From IMG/VR virus record IMGVR_UViG_3300050821_002755, positions 1-32,971 of that record: 32,971 nucleotides of DNA; one strand, given 5' to 3'. The notes under the pieces were generated by a model. That model ran no database searches. It worked only from the letters and a program-made list of their open reading frames with translations, and was not told the DNA's origin. Made by a program: the position numbers and the translations under genes. This document shows positions 233-32,971 of this stretch, in pieces (the first letter of the stretch is position 1; each line of letters begins with the position of its first letter). This stretch comes from a virus.

Positions 233-1528
233 ATGAAATTTGAATTAAAAGAATATAGATTTAAAAGTGAATTAAGAGCAGTAGTTGTTGATAATATTGG
301 TGGTGCCTATGTGCCCATAGCACATAGGATGTCAGATTTCTTTGATAAAGTTTATTATCATTCAGTTAATCAATCACCATTCCCAAGAATATCTTTAGAT
401 AAAATTGGTATTGGTTATGATGATATAGAAAGATTAGATGATTTTTGGAGTAGCTTATCTTTATTTGATGTGGTTATCTTCACTGATATATATTTTAGTG
501 ACTGGGGTGAGAGACTTAGAAAGATTGGTAAGTTAGTATGGGGTGGTTGTCAATCAGATGTTATTGAAACTGATAGGAAGTTATTTAAAGATGAATTAAG
601 TAATGTTGGTATGTTAGTTGCACCTACAAAATATATTAATGGTATAACTGATTTATTAGAATATTTAAAAGGAAGTAAAGATAAATGGATAAAGATGTCA
701 TATTATAGAGGTGAGATGGAAACATTTCATCATATTAATTGGTCACAATCACAAGTATGGGCAGATGATCTGAAAAGAGAAATGGGGCCTTTAGGAGAGA
801 CAGTTGAATTTATAATTGAAGATAGTATAGACTCTATTGCAGAGGTAGGATATGATGGTTATTGTATTAATGGTATTCATCCACAATCTGCGTTATGGGG
901 ATTAGAAGTTAAAGACTGTTGTTATGTAGGTAAGCAATCATTAAATAGTGATATGCCACAACCAGTACAATATGTAAATACAACATTTAGTCCTGTACTA
1001 CAGAAATATAAACACACAGGCTTCTATTCAACAGAAATACGTTATACAAAAGATGGTGATAGTTATTATACTGATCCTTGTTTAAGAGCAGGGTCACCAC
1101 CAAGTAATACTTATTTGGATATGATAGATAATTGGGATGATATTATTGTTGAGGGTGCTAAAGGTAATGTTGTTGAGCCAAAGTTCAGAGCAAAATATGG
1201 TGTAGAGATAATATTGAAGTCAGGTCACGCAACTGATAACTATTTACCGGTATCATTTGATCCTAAATATTCTAAGAATGTTAAATTGAAAGGATCATTT
1301 TATATTAATGATAGTAATTATATTATACCATTTAAACACGCAGGAATTGATATGAGCGAATTTGGGAGCGTTGTAGTAGTTGGTGATGATTTACCTTCAA
1401 TTGTGAATCAAGCGTTAGAAATCGCTTCTAATGTCGAATGTTATGGTATTAATTATGATAATAACGCTCTTGATAAAGCGATGGAGACGTTATCAAAGGT
1501 TGAGGAAGCTTTAAAAATAAAATTCTAA
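233..1528 (+). CDS. ATP-grasp ligase-like protein beside the tail fibre
   Basis: The 431-residue protein has the layout of ATP-grasp carboxylate-amine ligases related to phosphoribosylamine-glycine ligase. Residues about 113-160 (ETDRKLFKD, then VGMLVAPTKYI, then WIKMSYYRG with Lys154) resemble the first ATP-binding part. Residues about 268-295 (TEIRYTKDGDSYYTDPCLRAG) resemble the metal-binding core with an acidic residue, Asp and Arg. The C-terminal segment (GSVVVVGDDLPSIVNQALEIA) resembles the family's closing subdomain. The gene lies 14 bp after the fibre and 13 bp before a neck gene, so it is co-expressed with virion genes, which is odd for a purine-synthesis enzyme. Inference: it may attach an amino acid or similar group to a virion protein or to host surface material. 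The fold call is fairly firm; the substrate is unknown. Confidence 0.75.
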   Translation: MKFELKEYRFKSELRAVVVDNIGGAYVPIAHRMSDFFDKVYYHSVNQSPFPRISLDKIGIGYDDIERLDDFWSSLSLFDVVIFTDIYFSDWGERLRKIGKLVWGGCQSDVIETDRKLFKDELSNVGMLVAPTKYINGITDLLEYLKGSKDKWIKMSYYRGEMETFHHINWSQSQVWADDLKREMGPLGETVEFIIEDSIDSIAEVGYDGYCINGIHPQSALWGLEVKDCCYVGKQSLNSDMPQPVQYVNTTFSPVLQKYKHTGFYSTEIRYTKDGDSYYTDPCLRAGSPPSNTYLDMIDNWDDIIVEGAKGNVVEPKFRAKYGVEIILKSGHATDNYLPVSFDPKYSKNVKLKGSFYINDSNYIIPFKHAGIDMSEFGSVVVVGDDLPSIVNQALEIASNVECYGINYDNNALDKAMETLSKVEEALKIKF

Positions 1529-2009: not shown

Positions 2010-3781
2010 CAGCAAGTTTATTATTAGAACCACAAGAGTATTCACCAGTAAATGGTAATGTATGGTATAGATATGGTATAAATACCGATATTAATCCAGC
2101 ATCCTTTAGTGCTGTTAATTTAAACTATGTTGTAAATGTTAATCAATTAAGTTTTACTGGTAGTGTTATACAATCATTTCCAACTGTTGTATTACCACCA
2201 GATCCATCCAATGATGCTGCTTTTGATGCGCAAAGAATGTTAAAAACACAAGTCAATTATGATTTAACACATACACAACAAACATTGGAACCACAAGTTA
2301 ATGATACAGATACTTGGATATCTTTCAATACAAATTATGGATTCTCTTATGATCCAGGAACGACGTTTAGTAATGCCTATGATACAAATGGTTTCTTATC
2401 ATTTACATTCAGTACTGATATAACAAATATTTTAGAAGTAAATGATACTATATCTTATCAGTTACAAGTTACATCATTCACAATTGCATCATCTGGTACT
2501 GCATCAATTACACAAATATCAAGTTCATATTCTATTGTAACTGATATACAAGATATATCATTATTTTACACAGGTAATGTTGGTACACCAGGTGAATTAG
2601 GTGTGTTTAGTAACTCAACAAATGGATTACAAACTGCTGTAATATTTATTGGTGGTATTCCACCTTCTGTTGCTAATCAAATTAAACCAGGTATGTTATG
2701 GGCTTTTGGTGGTCAGACAAGTTCAATTGTATTAAGTGGTGCTGGACCATATCCTTATGGTGGTACTTATGGTAACTATCAATTATTGATGCAATTAGGT
2801 AATCCACAATCAGGAACAACAATTGGTAATTCTTATCAAAATGTAACCTATTCATTTTATAATACCGTATCAAATGGTAATGTAATTCAACCAGGTAACA
2901 TAACATCTTTATATAGAATAAATGGAACATCATCTACAAGATATGGATATGATGGAACAAGACAATATGATCAGAATTATAATGTATTTAACTTTAGTGT
3001 ATATGCTGCTAAAATAGGAACAAGTATGAGTTCTGCTGGTATGTTCTTAACTGATTATACACAGACTAAACAAGTATTCATAAGTAATTTTGAAACACTT
3101 GCTTTCATTGCCAATGCAAATGAAGTTAATTTTCCACTAACAACATATGTAATTACCTATGATCAGAATAATAATATTATAAATCAATATAATAGAACTG
3201 ATATTGGTGCCTCACAGAGTGGTATAATTTATACTATTGGTGCTGGACCACAAAATATTATAAATCACGGTGAGTTGGATCTAACAGGAGTTGATCATTA
3301 TACTGTTCAAGTATGGGATACTGATCATAATACAATTATTCAACCATTTACATATCAAATAGTACCTAATTGTTCGGTATATCCTAATGTAAGAGTGATG
3401 TTTATGAATAGATTTGGACAATTTGATTATTGGAATTTCAATAAAGATGATTTAAAAACAATTAATACAACAAGAACAATATATAGGAAACAATTACCTT
3501 ATAATTATAATATTGGAGATAGAGGTGATACGACATTATCACAAAAAGTTAATGAAGAACATACTATTCAAACAGATTGGATAAGTGAATATGATTATAA
3601 TTATTTAATTGAGTTAGCAACATCACCAGAAATATATATTATGAGTGATTTTAATACTAATCCATTTCCAGCTTTAATAACAGACACTACATTTGCTACT
3701 AAGACAGTCAATAGAGATAGAATATTTAATTTATCTATTGGTTATCAATTTGCTTATGATATAAATACACAAACAAGTTAA
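2006..3781 (+). CDS. Tail structural protein, probably distal tail / tail tip
   Basis: A 591-residue beta-rich, Asn/Thr/Tyr-rich protein. The C-terminal quarter contains a block beginning VRVMFMNRFGQFDYWNF, followed by a domain with the segment QKVNEEHTIQTDWISEYDYN. I recognise this arrangement from tail proteins of phages and prophages of Bacteroidota. It lies between a neck gene and a large tail-tip gene, overlapping both (4 bases upstream; one base, TAATG, downstream). A role in the tail tip or baseplate is inferred from context and the C-terminal block; there is no enzymatic motif. Confidence 0.7.
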   Translation: MTASLLLEPQEYSPVNGNVWYRYGINTDINPASFSAVNLNYVVNVNQLSFTGSVIQSFPTVVLPPDPSNDAAFDAQRMLKTQVNYDLTHTQQTLEPQVNDTDTWISFNTNYGFSYDPGTTFSNAYDTNGFLSFTFSTDITNILEVNDTISYQLQVTSFTIASSGTASITQISSSYSIVTDIQDISLFYTGNVGTPGELGVFSNSTNGLQTAVIFIGGIPPSVANQIKPGMLWAFGGQTSSIVLSGAGPYPYGGTYGNYQLLMQLGNPQSGTTIGNSYQNVTYSFYNTVSNGNVIQPGNITSLYRINGTSSTRYGYDGTRQYDQNYNVFNFSVYAAKIGTSMSSAGMFLTDYTQTKQVFISNFETLAFIANANEVNFPLTTYVITYDQNNNIINQYNRTDIGASQSGIIYTIGAGPQNIINHGELDLTGVDHYTVQVWDTDHNTIIQPFTYQIVPNCSVYPNVRVMFMNRFGQFDYWNFNKDDLKTINTTRTIYRKQLPYNYNIGDRGDTTLSQKVNEEHTIQTDWISEYDYNYLIELATSPEIYIMSDFNTNPFPALITDTTFATKTVNRDRIFNLSIGYQFAYDINTQTS

Positions 3782-7977: not shown

Positions 7978-10497
7978 ATGGCATATGATCAAAAGAAGGA
8001 AACTATAGCAGTCGAAATTAAGACGAATGTCCAGACAGCTAACTTTGATAAGGGTATGAAGCATATCACTGATAGTGTCAAGAAGACAACTAAAGAAGGT
8101 AGTAGTTTATTTGCTGATATGCTGAAGGCGGATGTTGTACTAGATGCCGCTTCTGGCATAGTAGGTTTTTTCGAGGATGCCAGTAGTGAAGCTCTCAAAA
8201 CAGGAACAGCAGTTGCCGTTTTAACAACAACATTAAAAGGTTTAGGTCAAGGTAAATATACAGAAGGATTAGTAAAAGAAGCGGAGAACTTAAGAAATAA
8301 ATATGGAGCCAGTGTAGAAGAGATAACTAAATCTCAAGTAGCTCTATTGAATACTGGTAAAGTATCAGCAAATCAATTAAAGACATTAACACCTTTAATA
8401 GAAGATTATGCCAAGAAAACAGGTAAAAGCTTTTCTGAAGCTTCTGATGCTATTATAAATGGTATCGAAGGTAGAGGTAAAGAACTTAAAAAAGATAATA
8501 TCAATCTTGATAAGAACGCAACAGCCTCACAAAACTTAGCTAGCATAACAGCTCAATTAACTAAAAATTATGGAGGATTTGCAGACGAATTAGCTAACAC
8601 GGATCCTGCTGCTGAGATAGATGCACTAGAGGGTTCTGTTGCTAATTTAAAAGATCAAGTAGGTACTGAATTAAATAAATCATTTGGTGATTTAGCAAAG
8701 AAATTAAAACCATTTTTAGATGAATTGATTCCTAAATTTGTAAAACTAGTAGGTTTCCTAGCAGATAAATTCTCTGATTTAGTCAGTGTCTTAATACCTT
8801 TAATTAGTTCTACATTAAAAGGATTAGAAGTCATTATTAAATCTATATCAAATAACTTTGGATTAGTAACAGAAATTGTAGAGACAGCAACCGTTGCTTT
8901 TGTAGCATATCAAATTGCAGTAAATGGTGCCGCTATTGCAACCAAAGTATTAAGTTCCATTACTGAAGTATATACTGGTATCCAAGCAGCATTGAATTTA
9001 GTTATGGATGCAAACCCAATTGGATTAATAATAATTGCTATAGCAGCTCTTGTGGCAGGATTTGAAATATTGTATAATAAAGTTAAGGTATTTCACGATT
9101 TTATATTAGCAGTGTGGCAAGATGTAACTGATTTTTTTGGATTTACTTCTGATCAATCAAGAGCAGCTGATAAGGCAGCTGCTGATCAAGCAGCAAAAAT
9201 ATTAAAAGATAAAGCTGATCAAGCAACAAAAGATAAGATAGCAGCAGAGAAAGCAGAACAAGATAAACAAGATGCAATAGCTAAGACTGTAAAAGAGTCA
9301 CAAGATAAACAAGATAAACTAGATCAAAAACATAAAAAGAAAGTAAAAGATCAAGGAGCAATAGATAGGAAAAAGAAAGCAGATGAAACTAAAAAAGATG
9401 ATAAAGATGAATTAAAGATATTAGAGGAACAATATAAAACAAGATTAAACTATGTTAAAGAAGGTTCTAAAGAAGAATATGATTTAAAGACTGCTCAAAT
9501 AGATGATGAAGTAGGTGCATATGGTAAAGTATATGCTAAACAACTTGCTGATCTGGATAAATTACATAAAGATAAGAAAATTTCTGAGAAAGATTATCAA
9601 GATCAATCATTACAATTAACTACATCTTATCAATTACAATTATCTGAGTTATCTAAACAATCTGAAACACTTATTTCTGAACAAAAGAAAAAAGAAAAAG
9701 AAGAATCTGCTAAATTATTAAAGGATCAACAAGATAACGCACTAGCAGAATTAGAGTATGAAAAGAGTTTAATAGATGATAAGAAAACTACACTAGAAAA
9801 GGCTGCTGAAGAAAGATTAGCAATTGAGCAGAACGAACACGACATTAAAATGCAACAATTGGCAGCTGCTGAGGCTGCTGAATTGGCATCAACAGAATTA
9901 ACAGAACAACAAAAGGCTGCAATAAGACAAAAATATTCACTTGAGAACAAAAAGAATGATAAAGAATTAGCAGATTCACAAAAACATCTATCTGATGTTA
10001 CTAAGCAAGTTAAATTAGATGAGTATAAAGCTGTTGGTGATGCTGCTTCTGCTCTATCTGGATTACTTGGGCAACAAACAGCTGCTGGTAAAGCATTAGC
10101 ATTATCATCAGCCTTAATTAATACCTATCTAGGTATTACAGAGGCGCTAAGACAACCATCAACCTTACCATCCCCATTTGATGTGATTGCAAAAGTAGCA
10201 AATGTTGCCACAGTATTATCAACAGGCATATCCGCTGTTAAGAAGATTACAGCTGTTAATGTTCCTGGTGGTAAAGGTGGTGGAGGTGGAGGTGCTTCAC
10301 TAGGTGGTATTCCAACATCAGCACCAAGTTCCTTCTCAACTTTATCCAATTCTCAGTTGTCTGCTATTGGTAATGGTTCTTCACAATTAAGTAATGGAAC
10401 AGATGGACCACAAAAAGTATTTGTAACTGAAGCAGATATTACCAGAACACAAACAAAAGTTGCTGTCATACAGCAACGTGCAAAGATAGGACATTAA
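7978..10497 (+). CDS. Tail tape measure protein
   Basis: An 839-residue protein with the usual tape-measure layout. There is an Ala/Lys-rich N-terminal region, then a hydrophobic middle (about residues 295-366, including ANPIGLIIIAIAALVAGFEI), then a long Lys/Glu/Gln-rich helical coiled-coil region (about 398-680), and a C-terminal part with a glycine run and a second hydrophobic segment (LALSSALINTYLGITEAL). The tape measure sets tail length; by the usual rule of about 0.15 nm per residue this would be near 125 nm. ATG at 7978 is chosen because an ATG five bases earlier is out of frame. No sheath gene is seen, so a siphovirus-type tail is more likely than a contractile one. Confidence 0.88.
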   Translation: MAYDQKKETIAVEIKTNVQTANFDKGMKHITDSVKKTTKEGSSLFADMLKADVVLDAASGIVGFFEDASSEALKTGTAVAVLTTTLKGLGQGKYTEGLVKEAENLRNKYGASVEEITKSQVALLNTGKVSANQLKTLTPLIEDYAKKTGKSFSEASDAIINGIEGRGKELKKDNINLDKNATASQNLASITAQLTKNYGGFADELANTDPAAEIDALEGSVANLKDQVGTELNKSFGDLAKKLKPFLDELIPKFVKLVGFLADKFSDLVSVLIPLISSTLKGLEVIIKSISNNFGLVTEIVETATVAFVAYQIAVNGAAIATKVLSSITEVYTGIQAALNLVMDANPIGLIIIAIAALVAGFEILYNKVKVFHDFILAVWQDVTDFFGFTSDQSRAADKAAADQAAKILKDKADQATKDKIAAEKAEQDKQDAIAKTVKESQDKQDKLDQKHKKKVKDQGAIDRKKKADETKKDDKDELKILEEQYKTRLNYVKEGSKEEYDLKTAQIDDEVGAYGKVYAKQLADLDKLHKDKKISEKDYQDQSLQLTTSYQLQLSELSKQSETLISEQKKKEKEESAKLLKDQQDNALAELEYEKSLIDDKKTTLEKAAEERLAIEQNEHDIKMQQLAAAEAAELASTELTEQQKAAIRQKYSLENKKNDKELADSQKHLSDVTKQVKLDEYKAVGDAASALSGLLGQQTAAGKALALSSALINTYLGITEALRQPSTLPSPFDVIAKVANVATVLSTGISAVKKITAVNVPGGKGGGGGGASLGGIPTSAPSSFSTLSNSQLSAIGNGSSQLSNGTDGPQKVFVTEADITRTQTKVAVIQQRAKIGH

Positions 10498-11938: not shown

Positions 11939-12967
11939 ATGGCAACACCAATTAATTCAACAGTAGTGTTATCTGCACTAACAAAATACATAGATCAACT
12001 GGGCAGACCAGAAATTATGACTGAGATCGTGTTGAGTGGTAGAACAGCTAAAATTGTTAATAAACAAACAGGCGTTAAATACCAACAAGCGATCAACTAT
12101 ATGACATCTCAGCTATTATGGCAGGCTACACAATGTGGTAACGCATTCACTTCTGCAACTGGTTCAGTAACATTAAATCAGCAAATTATGACAGTAACCC
12201 CTGTATCAATCATCGAAAACGTATGTTTAGTTGGTGCTGGTTCAATGGAACAGTACTGGACAGGTATGTTAATGACTAAAGGTTCTTACCAAGAAAAATT
12301 AACACCAGATGTATTCGCTAAAGCCTATGTAAGTGACAAAATTATGAAGATTCAAGACAGCATTGAAAAAGCAATCTGGCTTGGAATTGCGGGTGGAACA
12401 AACTCAGTATATCCAAATCTTAACTGGACAAATGGTTTCGTCTATCAATTAGAACAAACTGGAGCATCTGCATCAGTAATAATTGGTAACCCAACTTGGT
12501 CAGGTCCAATGCCAATATCTACATCATCTAGCGATTTATCAACAGTGAATTTCGTTAATGGTTTATTCACAGCAATACCTGAAAACGTATCAGATCAACC
12601 AGATCTTACATTGTTTATGAGTATATCTAACTTTAGAAACTATATTCTTGGTATGCAGAACTTAAATAGATATGACCCAACTTTCTTCTCTGTTAATCCA
12701 GATGGAGCAAATACTGAGAGATTATCTTGGAGTTACTTACACCCAGGAACTAACCTTAGAGTTGTTGGTACATCAGGTCTATTAGGATCAAATAAAATGG
12801 TAGCATCACCTGCAAGTATAATGTTTGTAGGAACTGATAACGAGGGTGAAGAAGAACAATTTGAAATATGGTTCTCACAAGACTATAATGCAATTGGATT
12901 CAGATCTCAATTCAAATTAGGAACTAACATCGTTTATCCTCAGTACGTAGTAGAATACAAAGGGTAA
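11939..12967 (+). CDS. Major capsid protein
   Basis: A 342-residue protein directly after the protease and scaffold genes, with richer codon usage than the accessory genes, as expected for a very highly expressed protein. It has a helical N-terminus (LTKYIDQLGRPEIMTEIVL), a long middle with a spine-helix-like segment (YVSDKIMKIQDSIEKAIWLGI), and a C-terminal beta part (EIWFSQDYNAIGFRSQFKLG). The layout and size fit an HK97-fold capsid of the type seen in Bacteroidota phages. Assignment rests on gene order plus these features. Confidence 0.8.
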   Translation: MATPINSTVVLSALTKYIDQLGRPEIMTEIVLSGRTAKIVNKQTGVKYQQAINYMTSQLLWQATQCGNAFTSATGSVTLNQQIMTVTPVSIIENVCLVGAGSMEQYWTGMLMTKGSYQEKLTPDVFAKAYVSDKIMKIQDSIEKAIWLGIAGGTNSVYPNLNWTNGFVYQLEQTGASASVIIGNPTWSGPMPISTSSSDLSTVNFVNGLFTAIPENVSDQPDLTLFMSISNFRNYILGMQNLNRYDPTFFSVNPDGANTERLSWSYLHPGTNLRVVGTSGLLGSNKMVASPASIMFVGTDNEGEEEQFEIWFSQDYNAIGFRSQFKLGTNIVYPQYVVEYKG

Positions 12968-19077: not shown

Positions 19078-19079
19078 AT

Positions 19080-19114
19080 GTTATATATATTAAGTTGTAA
19101 AAGTGTCTTTTTTC
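19080..19114 (-). promoter_or_regulatory. Conserved promoter-like motif, leftward copy
   Basis: On the minus strand this site reads GAAAAAAG, then ACACTTTTACAACTTAATAT, then ATATAA. The 34 bp (19081-19114) are a perfect inverted copy of 19852-19885. It sits directly before the first gene of the leftward operon (ATG at 19077). Conservation in five places before transcription units supports a promoter for a phage-specific or modified polymerase. Confidence 0.75.
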
Positions 19115-19169
19115 CATTTTTAATTATAAATATATATGTATATTATTTTGAATTTTAAAAAAATACTAA

Positions 19170-19197
19170 AAGGGACTTTTAAAACTTAATATATAAC
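19170..19197 (+). promoter_or_regulatory. Promoter-like motif, variant copy reading into the structured region
   Basis: GGACTTTTAAAACTTAATAT then ATAA at 19173-19196 is a shortened variant of the five-copy motif. It points rightward but no protein gene follows for 690 bp, so its product would be the structured element that begins near 19205. This is the best evidence that the region is transcribed as an RNA. Confidence 0.65.
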
Positions 19198-19199
19198 TT

Positions 19200-19690
19200 A
19201 ATTAATAAAATTAAATAAATTTACATACGTAAATAATCTTGTTGCCAGATGCAAGATTTAAATCAAAAGAATGGCTCAACTGATTGAAATAGTAGGTGGT
19301 CGGTGGCGATGGTTGGCTGGAACTCTACAACCTACACTCAAGTGAGTTAACGTCCAACGACAAGAAATAAACGAAAGGTAACAACTAAGGACTAAGGAGA
19401 TTGTCCAAAGTACTTCAATCTGACAATTATACCGCAAGGAAAAAACTTGACGGGCAATTAGATATTAGGTATATAAAATTTTATGGGTAACAAAAATTAT
19501 CTATAGAGTTTTTATCACTTAATCTTCTAATTGCCCGCAAGTTTCTGAATTGGCCTCTAATAAGTGATCTGGTCAATTAAATTTAAATATTTAAATTATT
19601 TTAATTACTTAAAATTTGCGAGTCTGACGCTCGCTGACCATAAATTTATTATGTAGCGTTGCGCACCCAAAGCGCATAAGCGATACTAAA
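19200..19690 (+). ncRNA. Candidate large structured noncoding RNA (possibly overlapping a replication origin)
   Basis: This gene-free stretch has locally higher G+C than its flanks and many complementary segments. Seen directly: hairpin 19235-19241/19252-19258; stem 19292-19297/19330-19335; stem GATTGTC/GACAATT (19399-19405/19422-19428); a 19-bp stem with one bulged A (19443-19462 with 19526-19544); hairpin AATTGGCC/GGTCAATT (19548-19555/19571-19578); and an 8-bp tertiary pairing ATCACTTA (19514-19521) with TAAGTGAT (19561-19568) that links the loops of the last two, a pseudoknot. GC hairpins follow at 19618-19634 and 19660-19676. Large ornate RNAs such as GOLLD and ROOL are known from phages; I cannot assign this to a known class. 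An origin with palindromes is the alternative. Confidence 0.55.
19580..19615. repeat. AT palindromes in the structured interval
   Basis: An 18-bp perfect palindrome, AATTTAAATATTTAAATT (19580-19597), is followed at once by an inverted repeat ATTTTAA-TTAC-TTAAAAT (19598-19615). Such easily melted palindromes next to GC-rich hairpins are typical of replication origins, but also expected by chance more often in AT-rich DNA. Confidence 0.5.
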
Positions 19691-19692
19691 AT

Positions 19693-19806
19693 TTAAATTT
19701 CTCTAAATTTCTTTAATCTTCTTTTATATTTCTTTTTAGAAAGATATCCCTTCCTTAATTGTTCTTGTATTATTTTTAAGTATTTTAATTTTAATTCAAT
19801 ATTCAT
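19693..19806 (-). CDS. Small basic ORF in the intergenic interval
   Basis: A 37-residue, very Lys/Arg-rich, helical ORF (MNIELKLKYLKIIQEQ..., ending KKFREI). Directly upstream on the minus strand is TATATTTGC (19811-19819), which fits the Bacteroidota -7 promoter element TAnnTTTG, but I see no -33 TTTG. The peptide could be a small nucleic-acid-binding protein; the low complexity makes it possible that it is not a gene. Confidence 0.35.
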   Translation of the reverse strand: MNIELKLKYLKIIQEQLRKGYLSKKKYKRRLKKFREI

Positions 19807-19851
19807 ACTGGCAAATATACAATTTTTTTATTTAATATAAAATATAAAATA

Positions 19852-19886
19852 GAAAAAAGACACTTTTACAACTTAATATATATAAT
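19852..19886 (+). promoter_or_regulatory. Conserved promoter-like motif, rightward copy
   Basis: Perfect inverted partner of 19081-19114 (34 of 34 bases). It ends at the ATG (19887) of the first gene of the right block, leaving no room for a leader if the TATATATAAT part is a -10 element. Either the mRNA is leaderless, or the recognised element lies further upstream in ACTTTTACAACTTAAT. Confidence 0.75.
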
Positions 19887-20456
19887 ATGACAACACAAGA
19901 TTACATATCCAGGAATGAAAAGGAAAGAGTATTCTTATTAGAAATATTCAAAAACATCTTTGATAAAGATAAATGTGATGTTAGTTATTATATGACTTCA
20001 ACAGAAGGTTATGATGAATATGATGGTGGTGTATGTATATTTAAAAAAGGAACTGGTTCTGTTGTATGTAGGCAGATATATGAGATTAAAATAAGAGATA
20101 TACATTATCCAGATTTAATGTTAGAGAGAACAAAGTTTAATAGACTCGTAAAGAAAGCAGAAGATTTATGGGATGCTCAGATTAAATATGTAAATGTAAC
20201 ACCACTTGGTACTTATATTTGGAATATAACAAAGGATGATAAGTATATTTGGTTAAAAGAAGAACATAATAAATCAACAACAGAGTTATCAAAAGGTAAA
20301 AAGATGAAACAAGTAACTTATTTAAGCACTTATATTGCAAAAAAAATGGATATGAAAACTTCTGATTATGATAAGTTATATAAAGAACAAAATATTAAAC
20401 AAGAAATTGTAAAGGAAGAACAAAAAAAATGTTTATTTGAATGGCTAATGAAATAG
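19887..20456 (+). CDS. PD-(D/E)XK nuclease-like protein
   Basis: A 189-residue protein, first gene of the right block. Residues 43-70 (DEYDGGVCIF, then CRQIYEIKIRD) carry the spacing of a PD-(D/E)XK active site: Asp46, then Glu66-Ile-Lys68, followed by a helix with Lys (ERTKFNRLVKKAED) and a strand YVNVTPLGTYIWNI. The C-terminal 60 residues are Lys-rich and helical. Being first after the strongest promoter motif suggests early expression, as for host-takeover or DNA-processing nucleases. Fold call is tentative. Confidence 0.55.
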   Translation: MTTQDYISRNEKERVFLLEIFKNIFDKDKCDVSYYMTSTEGYDEYDGGVCIFKKGTGSVVCRQIYEIKIRDIHYPDLMLERTKFNRLVKKAEDLWDAQIKYVNVTPLGTYIWNITKDDKYIWLKEEHNKSTTELSKGKKMKQVTYLSTYIAKKMDMKTSDYDKLYKEQNIKQEIVKEEQKKCLFEWLMK

Positions 20457-22973: not shown

Positions 22974-23320
22974 TGGACACAGAAATCACACGAATTAAAA
23001 GACAGGTTAGTTTCGATTTAAGACATATTAATCTTGCCTTTGATCAACCATTGGAACAGACCACAATTGATATACTTGAGAATATAATAAAAACATATGC
23101 TAAGTGTATAAGAGAAGATGAATTAGCTACTAATACAATAGATAGTTTAAAATCAATGGTACATAATTATACAATGAGATTAGATATGTTATCAAATAGA
23201 AGCGAATATGTATCATATTCTAATTATGTAAATGACTTATTAGATAATTATATGATGATATGTGAAGACTTAGAACTATTTGAGTCTTGTACTAATCTTA
23301 GAAATATAAGAAAAGCCTAA
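22973..23320 (+). CDS. Hypothetical helical protein
   Basis: A 115-residue protein predicted to be all helical from its heptad-like hydrophobic pattern (TTIDILENIIKTYAKCIRED; DSLKSMVHNYTMRLDMLSNR). One-base overlaps with both neighbours. It lies directly upstream of the sigma-like gene and could be a partner, but this is context only. Confidence 0.6.
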   Translation: MDTEITRIKRQVSFDLRHINLAFDQPLEQTTIDILENIIKTYAKCIREDELATNTIDSLKSMVHNYTMRLDMLSNRSEYVSYSNYVNDLLDNYMMICEDLELFESCTNLRNIRKA

Positions 23321-23871
23321 TGAATGATGTAATCATAGACCACGTTATGAAATCAGAATCTTTAAATAACTATATCAACTTCCATTTTAGGAACAAGGAT
23401 ATAAATTTAAAAAATGATTTCAAACAAGAATTTTATCTAGTTTTATTAGAATATGATATAAAAGAATTGAAAAATATATATAATAGAGGTGGTATAGAAA
23501 AGTTTTGTATGCAGATATTAAAGAATAAACTAGAATCTAAATCAAATATATGGTATAAAGTTTATATATCAAATGGTTTCTGGGATATAAACTTTCTTAA
23601 AACATATGACGAATATAATGAATTTGATTCTCTTCCCATAGAAGATGATATCATAATCAGAAAGGAAAAAGAAAGATTAGAGGATAATAGGATAGAAAGA
23701 ATAGAAAATATTTTATTACATACAGAACCAACCAGTTCTTTATTATTTAAACTAAAGTATTTTAAAGGTTATTCTTATAATCAATTATCAGAAATGACAG
23801 GAGTAAACTATCAAGTTATTAGGAATAAAATAAAAAGTGTATTAGAAGTAATTAAAGGAAAGAATATATGA
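23320..23871 (+). CDS. RNA polymerase sigma factor-like protein
   Basis: A 183-residue protein with the two-domain pattern of a small ECF-type sigma factor. Residues about 30-80 (NDFKQEFYLVLLEYD..., FCMQILKNKLESKSNIWYK) resemble region 2, which binds the core polymerase and the -10 element. Residues about 138-176 (SSLLFKLKYFKGYSYNQLSE, then MTGVNYQVIRNKIKSVLE) form a helix-turn-helix like region 4. An acidic linker joins them. Together with the repeated promoter-like motif in this genome, it suggests phage-directed transcription. A DNA-binding regulator without sigma activity is the alternative. Confidence 0.65.
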   Translation: MNDVIIDHVMKSESLNNYINFHFRNKDINLKNDFKQEFYLVLLEYDIKELKNIYNRGGIEKFCMQILKNKLESKSNIWYKVYISNGFWDINFLKTYDEYNEFDSLPIEDDIIIRKEKERLEDNRIERIENILLHTEPTSSLLFKLKYFKGYSYNQLSEMTGVNYQVIRNKIKSVLEVIKGKNI

Positions 23872-29909: not shown

Positions 29910-32900
29910 ATGGCTTCAGATACACAGAGTTTACAAAAGATTTATTCAATAATACAAGATTTAGCACTTAGAAATAAGATGGTTGCTGCTTGTCAATTCG
30001 GACCAACCTGGAATATAGGAACATCTAATATACTTACCCCATTTGTATGGGTAGAGCCAACTGAAACGACAATTGTTTATTCTTCAACAGGTATGGGAAC
30101 TCAATTATTTGGGTTTAATATCTATTGTATGGATAGGATTAACAAAGGAGATGATAACTGGATAGAAACTCAATCTGATACCAGATATATTATCGAAACA
30201 ATGGTTGCTCAAATAGATAGTCACCCTTATTTCATTGCTAATAATATTGCATTCATAAGTGATCAAACACTTGAACCAATGGTTGAAGAATCAGATATCA
30301 ATTGTAATGGTTGGGTATGGAGATGTAGGCTTAATATGCCACTTAGATATGGTATTTGTAACACACCATACTATCCAGTTACTGGATTCACAGTTAGTTT
30401 AAATAGTAATATAGCAGAATATAGATTAATAGGTGCAACGGGACCCCAAGGCCCGATTGGACCAACTGGACCTCAAGGTGCAACTGGTGCCACAGGTATA
30501 GGAGTGACTGGACCAACTGGAACATCAGGTAGCATAGGCGCAACTGGTCCAACTGGTGCAACAGGACCTCAAGGTGATATTGGAGCAACCGGCGCAACCG
30601 GCATATCTGGAGCAACAGGATATGGAGTTACACAATCTTGGCAAGATACGTTGGATGTAAGTTCAACTCTTAATAAAGATAATACTGCCGATGTTAATGG
30701 ATATTCTTTTACATTCACAGATGTTTTTGATTTCAATGCTAGAATAATAGATAAATTTAGTATTACTGATACAGATAGTTTTGCATCTCTATTAGATGTA
30801 GATGTTAATGGTAATTTTAATTTATATAGTTTAATTGATACTTTTCATAATAATACTTTTAGTATCGATATTGAAGGTAATCTTTCTTTACAAGGCTCCA
30901 ATGATGGTACAACATACTTTCAAACATTTCAAGTAGATAATACAGGTCAAATTATATCACATAGTATTGTAAATGGTGTTCAAAATGAGATATTTAATAT
31001 TACAAGTGATGGTTCATTATATCTTAATTCATCTAATAGTGGAGATGGTACTGGATTCTTAAATACTTTTAATATTGATGATTATGGTGAGATGATATTA
31101 GCATCTAATATAAATGTTAGGTCAAATGTAACACTTATAGTAGATAGATATGGTAATATGAATGTGAGAGGTGATGGTAATACAGGTGATGGTACAAATT
31201 ATCAGAATACATTACAATTAAGTAGAAGTGGTGAATTTGAAGTTATATCTAATTTCAATGGTATTTCTAATACAACATTAGATATTAGTGATGATGGAAC
31301 TCTTCAATTAAATGGTGATGGTAATGCAGGTGATGGTACTGGTTTTGTTAATATTCTATATGTTGGTGATACTGGATTCTTTAAATTATTCAGTAATTTA
31401 GGTGGTGTTCAAAATGAAACTTTACAAATAGGTGTTGATGGAGATTTAACATTATTTGGTGATGATGGTAGAGGTGATGGAACTGGTTTTGTTGAAACAT
31501 TTAATATTAATTGGGATGGTTATACTACTATATTTTCTAACATTATTGGTAACCAAAATCAAACACTTAATATAGATAATGAAGGTAATTTTAATATTTA
31601 TGGTGATAGTGGAAGTGCTGATGGGACTAATTTTCAGAAAACATTTGGAATAGATGACCAAGGTCAATTAGTCTTACAATCAAACATTAATGGCTCTTCT
31701 AATGGAACATTTAATATAGATAGATTTGGAGTACTAAACTTATTAGGTGATGGTGGTGCAGGAGATGGTACAAATTTTAATACTACATTTAATATAGACC
31801 CAAGTGGTCAAATATTTGCTTTTGCGAATATAAATGGTACTCAAAATCAAATATTAGGACTAGGTAAATATGGTAATTTTTCTATATTAGCATCATTTGA
31901 TGATACTGGTGATTCATATATAGGTTCATTTGAAGTTAGTTCTGATGGTAGTTATAGTTTTAGTAATACTCAATTCAATGCAAATATTCTTTATTCTACT
32001 GCTGTTGGTGAATTTACATTATATAGTATTATCAATACTCAAAATGTTACTTTACATTTATCTGATGAAGGCTACTTTAGTATTAATGGTGATGGTGGAA
32101 ATAATGATGGAACTGGATTCCAACAAACATTATCATTAAGTGAATCTGGTTATTTTGTTATCAATTCAAATATATCAGGTAATCAAAATCAAACATTATC
32201 ATTAGATACATTTGGTGAATTTCATATCAACGGATGTGGTATTGATACTACAACCTATGTAAATACATTCGTAATAGATAGACAAGGTTTTCTACAAGTA
32301 TATTCTAATTTGAACGGCATACAAAATGAAACTTTCCAAGTAGATAAAGAAGGTGGATTAACATTATGGGGTGATGCTGATTATGGGGATGGTACCGGAT
32401 TTCAAAACACATTTCAAGTTACATCAACAGGTATATTAAATCTATGGTCTAACTTAGTTGGTACTACACCAATACAAACATTTCAAATAGATGATAATGG
32501 TAATTTAAATGTATATGGTATAGTATCAGGTGTTCAATATAATACTTTATTCTTAGATAGTTATGGAAACTTCCAATTATTTGCTGCTACAACTCTTGGT
32601 GTAAATAATACATTTACTGTTACTAATAGTGGAGTTGCATATATTAATAGTATTATTGATGGGTTTAATAATACAACATTTTCTATAGATAATGAAGGTA
32701 ATTTTACATTATCAGGTGATGGTGGTAATAATGATGGAACTGGATTTTTCCCAACATTAACTATAGATAATGAAGGTGATTTTAATTTATATTCTAATAT
32801 ATCAGGTAATCAAAATAATACACTTAGTATAGGTAATAATGGTGACTTTAGATTAAATATATTAAATGGTTCTTTTAATCCTACATTAGAAATAAATGTT

Positions 32901-32971
32901 GTTAGCGGTGTAACCAAAGCTCAACTTATAGGATGTGTATTAAATTTAGATAATAGTTCAGTTAATACATA
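29910..32971 (+). CDS. Collagen-like tail fibre, N-terminal and central part (continues at 1-218)
   Basis: Together with 1-218 this encodes a 1067-residue protein. Residues 1-170 form a compact domain ([50 protein letters not shown]) that resembles tail-terminator or tail-completion proteins of Bacteroidota phages. Residues 175-238 are about 21 Gly-X-Y triplets ([15 protein letters not shown] and so on) with one interruption, a collagen-like rod. The rest is a tract of repeats of about 48 residues ([21 protein letters not shown], then [14 protein letters not shown]), fitting a long beta fibre. The frame is open at the contig end only because of the arbitrary cut. Host binding is inferred. Confidence 0.85.
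32896..32971 (+). repeat. 76-bp terminal overlap with bases 1-76
   Basis: Identical to the first 76 bases. The fibre reading frame runs through in register, so this is the assembly overlap of a circular (or circularly permuted) genome rather than a biological duplication. Confidence 0.95.

Follow-up and report, generated by a model that had tools for sequence, protein, structure and literature searches.

A strand-specific RNA hairpin, probably transcribed, in the presumed late/early control region of a phage genome

Among phages, leaders and intergenic hairpins that are processed by RNase III are known from lambda (the N leader and sib) and from the early mRNA of T7, and origins primed by transcription are known from T7 (the primary origin) and T4 (oriA and oriF). 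RNAs of the GOLLD and ROOL families are often encoded near tRNA islands (PMC12286853). The literature on such ornate RNAs gave us general background only. Here we consider a phage record of 32,971 nucleotides (the whole stretch analysed, hereafter the window), and within it a gene-free interval for which a preliminary description had proposed a new class of large ornate RNA or a replication origin. The reading that we prefer, at a confidence somewhat short of even, is that the interval is a late/early control region in which a promoter at 19169-19195 makes an untranslated hairpin RNA, a leader or a small RNA, likeliest to act in cis.

The record carries an exact terminal repeat of 76 nt (positions 1-76 and 32896-32971), and the tail-fibre ORF, from 29910 to the end, runs across the join and continues in frame at 3-218, for a product of 1067 aa. 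The map is therefore complete and circular, at 32,895 bp. Matches in PHROGs and Pfam identify a terminase, a portal, a tape measure, a DUF6712 protein, a GIY-YIG nuclease, an endonuclease-VII-like protein and the tail fibre, and the same scan of the window ORFs returned a weak sigma-region-4-like match. Phages of Parabacteroides and Flavobacterium encode relatives of the terminase, as do several hundred IMG/VR contigs; the closest relative is 55% identical. We infer a small tailed phage with a host within Bacteroidota. In the ORFs that were run against Pfam and PHROGs we recognised no polymerase, helicase, primase or reverse transcriptase, in line with the earlier statement that the phage encodes no replication enzymes, and the complete genome holds no tRNA or tmRNA gene.

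The interval of about 0.8 kb, said to be gene-free, is indeed so: 19078-19886 is the sole gap of at least 150 bp without an ORF in the whole genome. It is flanked by two identical and divergent copies of a 27-nt motif, one leftward (19084-19110, -), 6 nt ahead of the ORF 19077-18829, the other at the head of the early operon (19856-19882, +), 4 nt ahead of the ORF that starts at 19887. A variant had been described as reading into the interval, and we find it at 19169-19195 (+), with 3 mismatches to the two perfect copies, 0 such matches being expected by chance; the core of this promoter family, ACTTTTAnAACTTAATATATA, is exact at 19175-19195, and a search of IMG/VR for it showed that it is present in related phages. 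In its 21-27 nt form the motif occurs in the window at 19084, 19169, 19856, 22362 and 28104, and it is common to several IMG/VR phages. We tabulated 28 copies with at most 3 mismatches in 13 sequences, a gene being an ORF of 40 aa or more. As 26 of them lie 0-26 nt ahead of such an ORF, the motif appears to behave as a phage-specific gene-start promoter, and the 19169 copy would drive a noncoding stretch only. This copy (19175 in the tabulation), with no ORF of at least 40 aa within 400 nt, is one of the two exceptions. The other lies at 337 in contig L185, 355 nt from the next ORF, with a terminator at ~402-435; the stretch 337-435 (+) of that contig, a motif copy with a terminator within ~80 nt and no gene, is a possible small RNA. 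The motif may be read by the sigma-region-4-like protein encoded at 23320-23871, relatives of which occur in L007, L019 and L003.

On its right-hand side the interval is bounded by a small ORF of 37 aa, MNIELKLKYLKIIQEQLRKGYLSKKKYKRRLKKFREI, at 19693-19806 (-). The product is basic and has look-alikes in L008 (8373-8173) and in L009 (from 6945, - strand). Directly ahead of the ATG, in the window and in L009, stands a TATATTTG box, which we take to resemble the -7 element of Bacteroidota. The first early gene (19887-20456, +) has a predicted PD-(D/E)XK nuclease as its product, with an Hjc-like fold: its structure model (pLDDT 73) matches the archaeal Hjc Holliday junction resolvases with a Z of 10.5 and an rmsd of 3.1 over 109 residues. 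Homologues with the conserved D...E-x-K signature were found in L174 and L190, among the contigs fetched for comparison, a peptide-pattern search of IMG/VR with this ORF having given no match. In the relatives these homologues are located away from the late/early junction, and we therefore claim no link between the nuclease gene and the hairpin.

The most prominent element of the interval had been described as a 19-bp stem (19443-19462/19526-19544). This pairing is exact save for one bulge, but it does not stop there: it is the base of a + strand hairpin of 102 nt (19443-19544), which continues through an upper half (19463-19525) to ~46 pairs and a 6-nt loop, a few positions being bulged or mismatched when pairing is counted without regard to strand. 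When the entire window was scanned for structure against shuffles, 120 nt at a time and on both strands, the lowest value of each strand fell at this hairpin (z -8.1 on +, -6.0 on -). The upper half taken by itself gives a z of -5.35 on the + strand, with none of 1000 shuffles as good, against -0.74 on the - strand. A second hairpin (19548-19578, arms 19548-19555/19571-19578, 15-nt loop), which had also been noted, is likewise present on the + strand only, with a z of -2.64 against -0.28. The folding contrast is clear, and since a - strand RNA or a DNA cruciform would lose pairs in both elements, the structure looks kept as + strand RNA. A cruciform is out for the upper stem, whose pairing is strand-specific. 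All five internal wobbles of the long hairpin are G.U on the + strand and none is an internal A.C, a count that is weak alone (two-sided p ~0.06 for the five, ~0.03 if one in the second hairpin is included).

The G+C-raised 5' part of the presumed transcript (19235-19440, +), where G+C reaches 0.50 per 50 nt, folds no better than shuffles (z +0.66 on +, -0.38 on -), and its six-frame translation shows no convincing gene. The z of -6.1 of the whole interval on the + strand is due mainly to the single long hairpin. The description of the interval as gene-free, structured and transcribed is supported for the + strand hairpin, which has a phage promoter of its own and a fold confined to one strand. 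The reported palindrome of 18 bp, AATTTAAATATTTAAATT, is there at 19580-19597, A/T throughout and without strand. The 8-nt pairing of 19514-19521 with 19561-19568, presented as loop to loop, matches at every letter. However, 19514-19521 is no loop but part of the long hairpin, in its 3' arm. To release it would take ~6.6 kcal/mol, for -7.0 gained, a roughly even balance when no loop cost is counted, and 8-nt matches of this type have a chance p of ~0.03-0.04. The pseudoknot, which would compete with the main stem, is on these grounds unsupported.

How would such a transcript be made and used? Transcription from the promoter at 19169-19195 would run rightward and yield an untranslated RNA a few hundred nt long, with the 102-nt, ~46-bp hairpin as its main feature, followed by the small second hairpin. 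Either this RNA would continue into the early operon and serve as its long leader, or cleavage or a stop at the hairpin would leave a small RNA. A duplex of ~46 bp should be a substrate of the host RNase III and a block to read-through, and would so keep the promoter-proximal RNA apart from both the early mRNA and the convergent small gene 19806-19693. What the sequence shows is the promoter copy, the lack of an ORF, the hairpin and its one-strand fold, from which we infer transcription, processing by RNase III and a regulatory role. No intrinsic terminator was found in the rightward direction, where the stem is followed by no T run on the + strand (its tail is TTTCTGAATT) and the scan gave no call, and we count this against a leader or small RNA.

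In the leftward direction, the - strand carries a T6 directly past the stem (19442-19437), so that a G+C-rich stem base followed by a T run, as in an intrinsic terminator, is present; our simple terminator scanner, which accepts loops of 3-8 nt only, did not call it. The stem base may thus end the leftward transcript of the ORF 19806-19693, and with the T6 it would serve as the terminator of that gene. It could then be argued that the stem has no other duty, that the early operon has in the 19169 copy a second promoter, further upstream, and that the rest is spacer, all the more as terminators built of A-tract, stem and T-tract occur at convergent genes in relatives (L024 17031-17074, L020 7571-7604, L184 4302-4337). 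We consider this rather unlikely, however. A terminator needs ~10-17 bp, and the further ~26 pairs exist on the opposite strand only; moreover, six T in eight are fairly often expected in sequence so A/T-rich. Leftward termination accounts for the stem base and not for the + specific upper half.

For comparison we retrieved contigs that share this gene order and examined the late/early junction of each. Many of these junctions are noncoding, with sequences unlike one another: 552 nt in L019, ~790 nt with a 48-bp inverted repeat in L023, 314 nt in L020, 160 nt in L024, 358 nt in L184, 344 nt with a long direct repeat in L187, 405 nt with a 32-bp inverted repeat in L191 and ~640 nt in L174. The near-perfect inverted repeat of L023 (11804-11851 and 11951-11998) is accompanied by a further direct copy (12025-12084). 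We judged GGGYAATTAGATAT, common to this repeat and to the window hairpin, to be chance-level by our own estimate, the arms being in opposite order, and a hairpin pattern search returned nothing in IMG/VR. The closest relative that reaches the junction, L003, has - strand ORFs there and an A/T-rich gap of 156 nt only, which counts against the leader or small RNA. In its favour is L174, the best parallel, which is arranged alike at this position: first a part of raised G+C without structure, next a hairpin (z -6.7 on the + strand), a terminator and then the early genes. The stretch 9230-9670 (+) of L174 is gene-free, ends in a strong terminator and has no Rfam match; it has the look of another noncoding RNA, unrelated to the first, at the corresponding position. 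A match seen by eye between TAGTAGGTGG..GCGATGG of the window and TAGTAGAGG..GCGATG of L174 proved no better than shuffles, and the two show no recognisable similarity in sequence (p 0.28).

De novo word counting singled out ACCCACCAC, which with at most one mismatch is found in 6 of 11 junctions, a number unreached in six rounds of shuffled gaps, and whose density in the junctions exceeds that elsewhere in most of these contigs. Its junctions include those of L019, L020, L023, L174 and L184, and a longer form, TTACCCACCACCTCATC, occurs in L023 and L184. An unclassified protein of 325-401 aa adjoins the junction in four contigs (L019 6770-7747, -; L020 4525-5544, -; L023 10330-11535, -; L024 14104-15081, -), and a further gene of this kind lies at 2416-3663 (+) in L026. 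Its motifs, D-A-x-x-S-Q-P-R-L-L and L-Q-x-x-E...I-H-D-S, are reminiscent of those of DNA polymerase A or single-subunit RNA polymerases. The protein has no match in Pfam, in PHROGs or by fold, and no sequence relative in PDB beyond chance; its structure model (pLDDT 44) was unusable.

These junctions motivate a replication origin, possibly primed by the 19169 transcript, where strands would separate in the A/T-rich stretches and initiation would be aided by the hairpin. Such a function would suit a window in which the ORF scan recognised no replication gene, and the relatives offer a junction that is noncoding, repeat-rich and next to the polymerase-like gene (L019, L020, L023, L024) and enriched in the ACCCACCAC word. 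Against an origin in the window, its single copy of the word, ACCGACCAC (19296-19304, -), is imperfect by one mismatch, the polymerase-like gene is absent, and the gap contains no DnaA box (at most one mismatch) and no iteron family. Moreover, the upper stem is not a DNA cruciform, and cumulative GC skew, the check proposed for an origin, merely tracks gene direction and was not used. An origin is better motivated by the relatives than by the interval itself, and we regard it as unlikely here.

Doubtful as well is a lineage-specific RNA that the phage would make early from a promoter dedicated to it. Its 46-bp duplex would act in trans, perhaps by tying up a defence sensor or an enzyme of the host that binds double-strand RNA, or the transcript would prime replication in a phage without a recognisable replication enzyme of its own. 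An improbable reading is that of decaying or recently inserted sequence without function. It has for it that no search returned a homologue and that the G+C lies above that of the surroundings. However, the genome has no other gap of at least 150 bp, and a one-strand hairpin that stays intact despite imperfect complementarity is unexpected from decay.

Homologues of the interval were sought in phages, in plasmids, by pattern searches of IMG/VR and in 395 genomes of one host class, and none was found; the last search had no positive control, so its empty answer shows little. An exact 19-mer from the G+C-rich part is absent from IMG/VR. The covariance models proposed as a check (GOLLD, ROOL, OLE and the other Rfam RNAs) gave no gathering-threshold match in the window and nothing relevant in the interval at E up to 10, and the matches obtained at a relaxed threshold, in the interval and in L174, were chance only. 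No reverse transcriptase that would go with a retron or diversity-generating retroelement RNA was found among the ORFs scanned with Pfam and PHROGs. A phage RNA of a new class, large and ornate in the manner of GOLLD and ROOL, has in its favour the fold of the whole interval and the promoter that reads into it, but is very improbable, with a 5' half at z near 0 where elaborate structure over most of the length would be expected, a pseudoknot that competes with the stem, no Rfam match, no tRNA gene and no homologue. The interval shares with GOLLD and ROOL (PMC12286853) that it is noncoding, phage-borne and structured; it differs in having no covariance-model match, no tRNA island and no conserved family, and its structured core is shorter, ~140 nt.

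We conclude that the + strand RNA hairpin in this phage control region is real and probably transcribed, and that it is probably placed at the switch between late and early genes. The reading that fits best is that of a leader or small RNA, untranslated and with a possible duty in termination or processing. Since phage genomes of this size are almost wholly coding, the sole untranslated stretch with its own promoter likely matters for early control or replication. The related uncultured phages have a common gene order around the late/early junction, which is often noncoding and without conserved sequence. As in several of them this junction lies beside the polymerase-like gene, it offers a defined place to seek replication and switch signals.

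Among the systems to which the locus can be compared, intrinsic (rho-independent) terminators share with it the A-tract, the G+C-containing stem and the T-tract of the - side. The window hairpin differs from them by its ~46 bp, its 6-nt loop on the + strand and an upper half specific to the opposite strand. The T7 primary origin and T4 oriA and oriF resemble it in having a phage promoter followed by A/T-rich noncoding DNA; here the phage is one without recognised replisome genes. As compared with the RNase III-processed leaders of lambda and T7, the window has a longer stem, an unrelated sequence and a host of an unrelated phylum, but it shares with the lambda N leader, with sib and with the T7 early mRNA a long untranslated hairpin of the + strand, set between an early promoter and the early genes.
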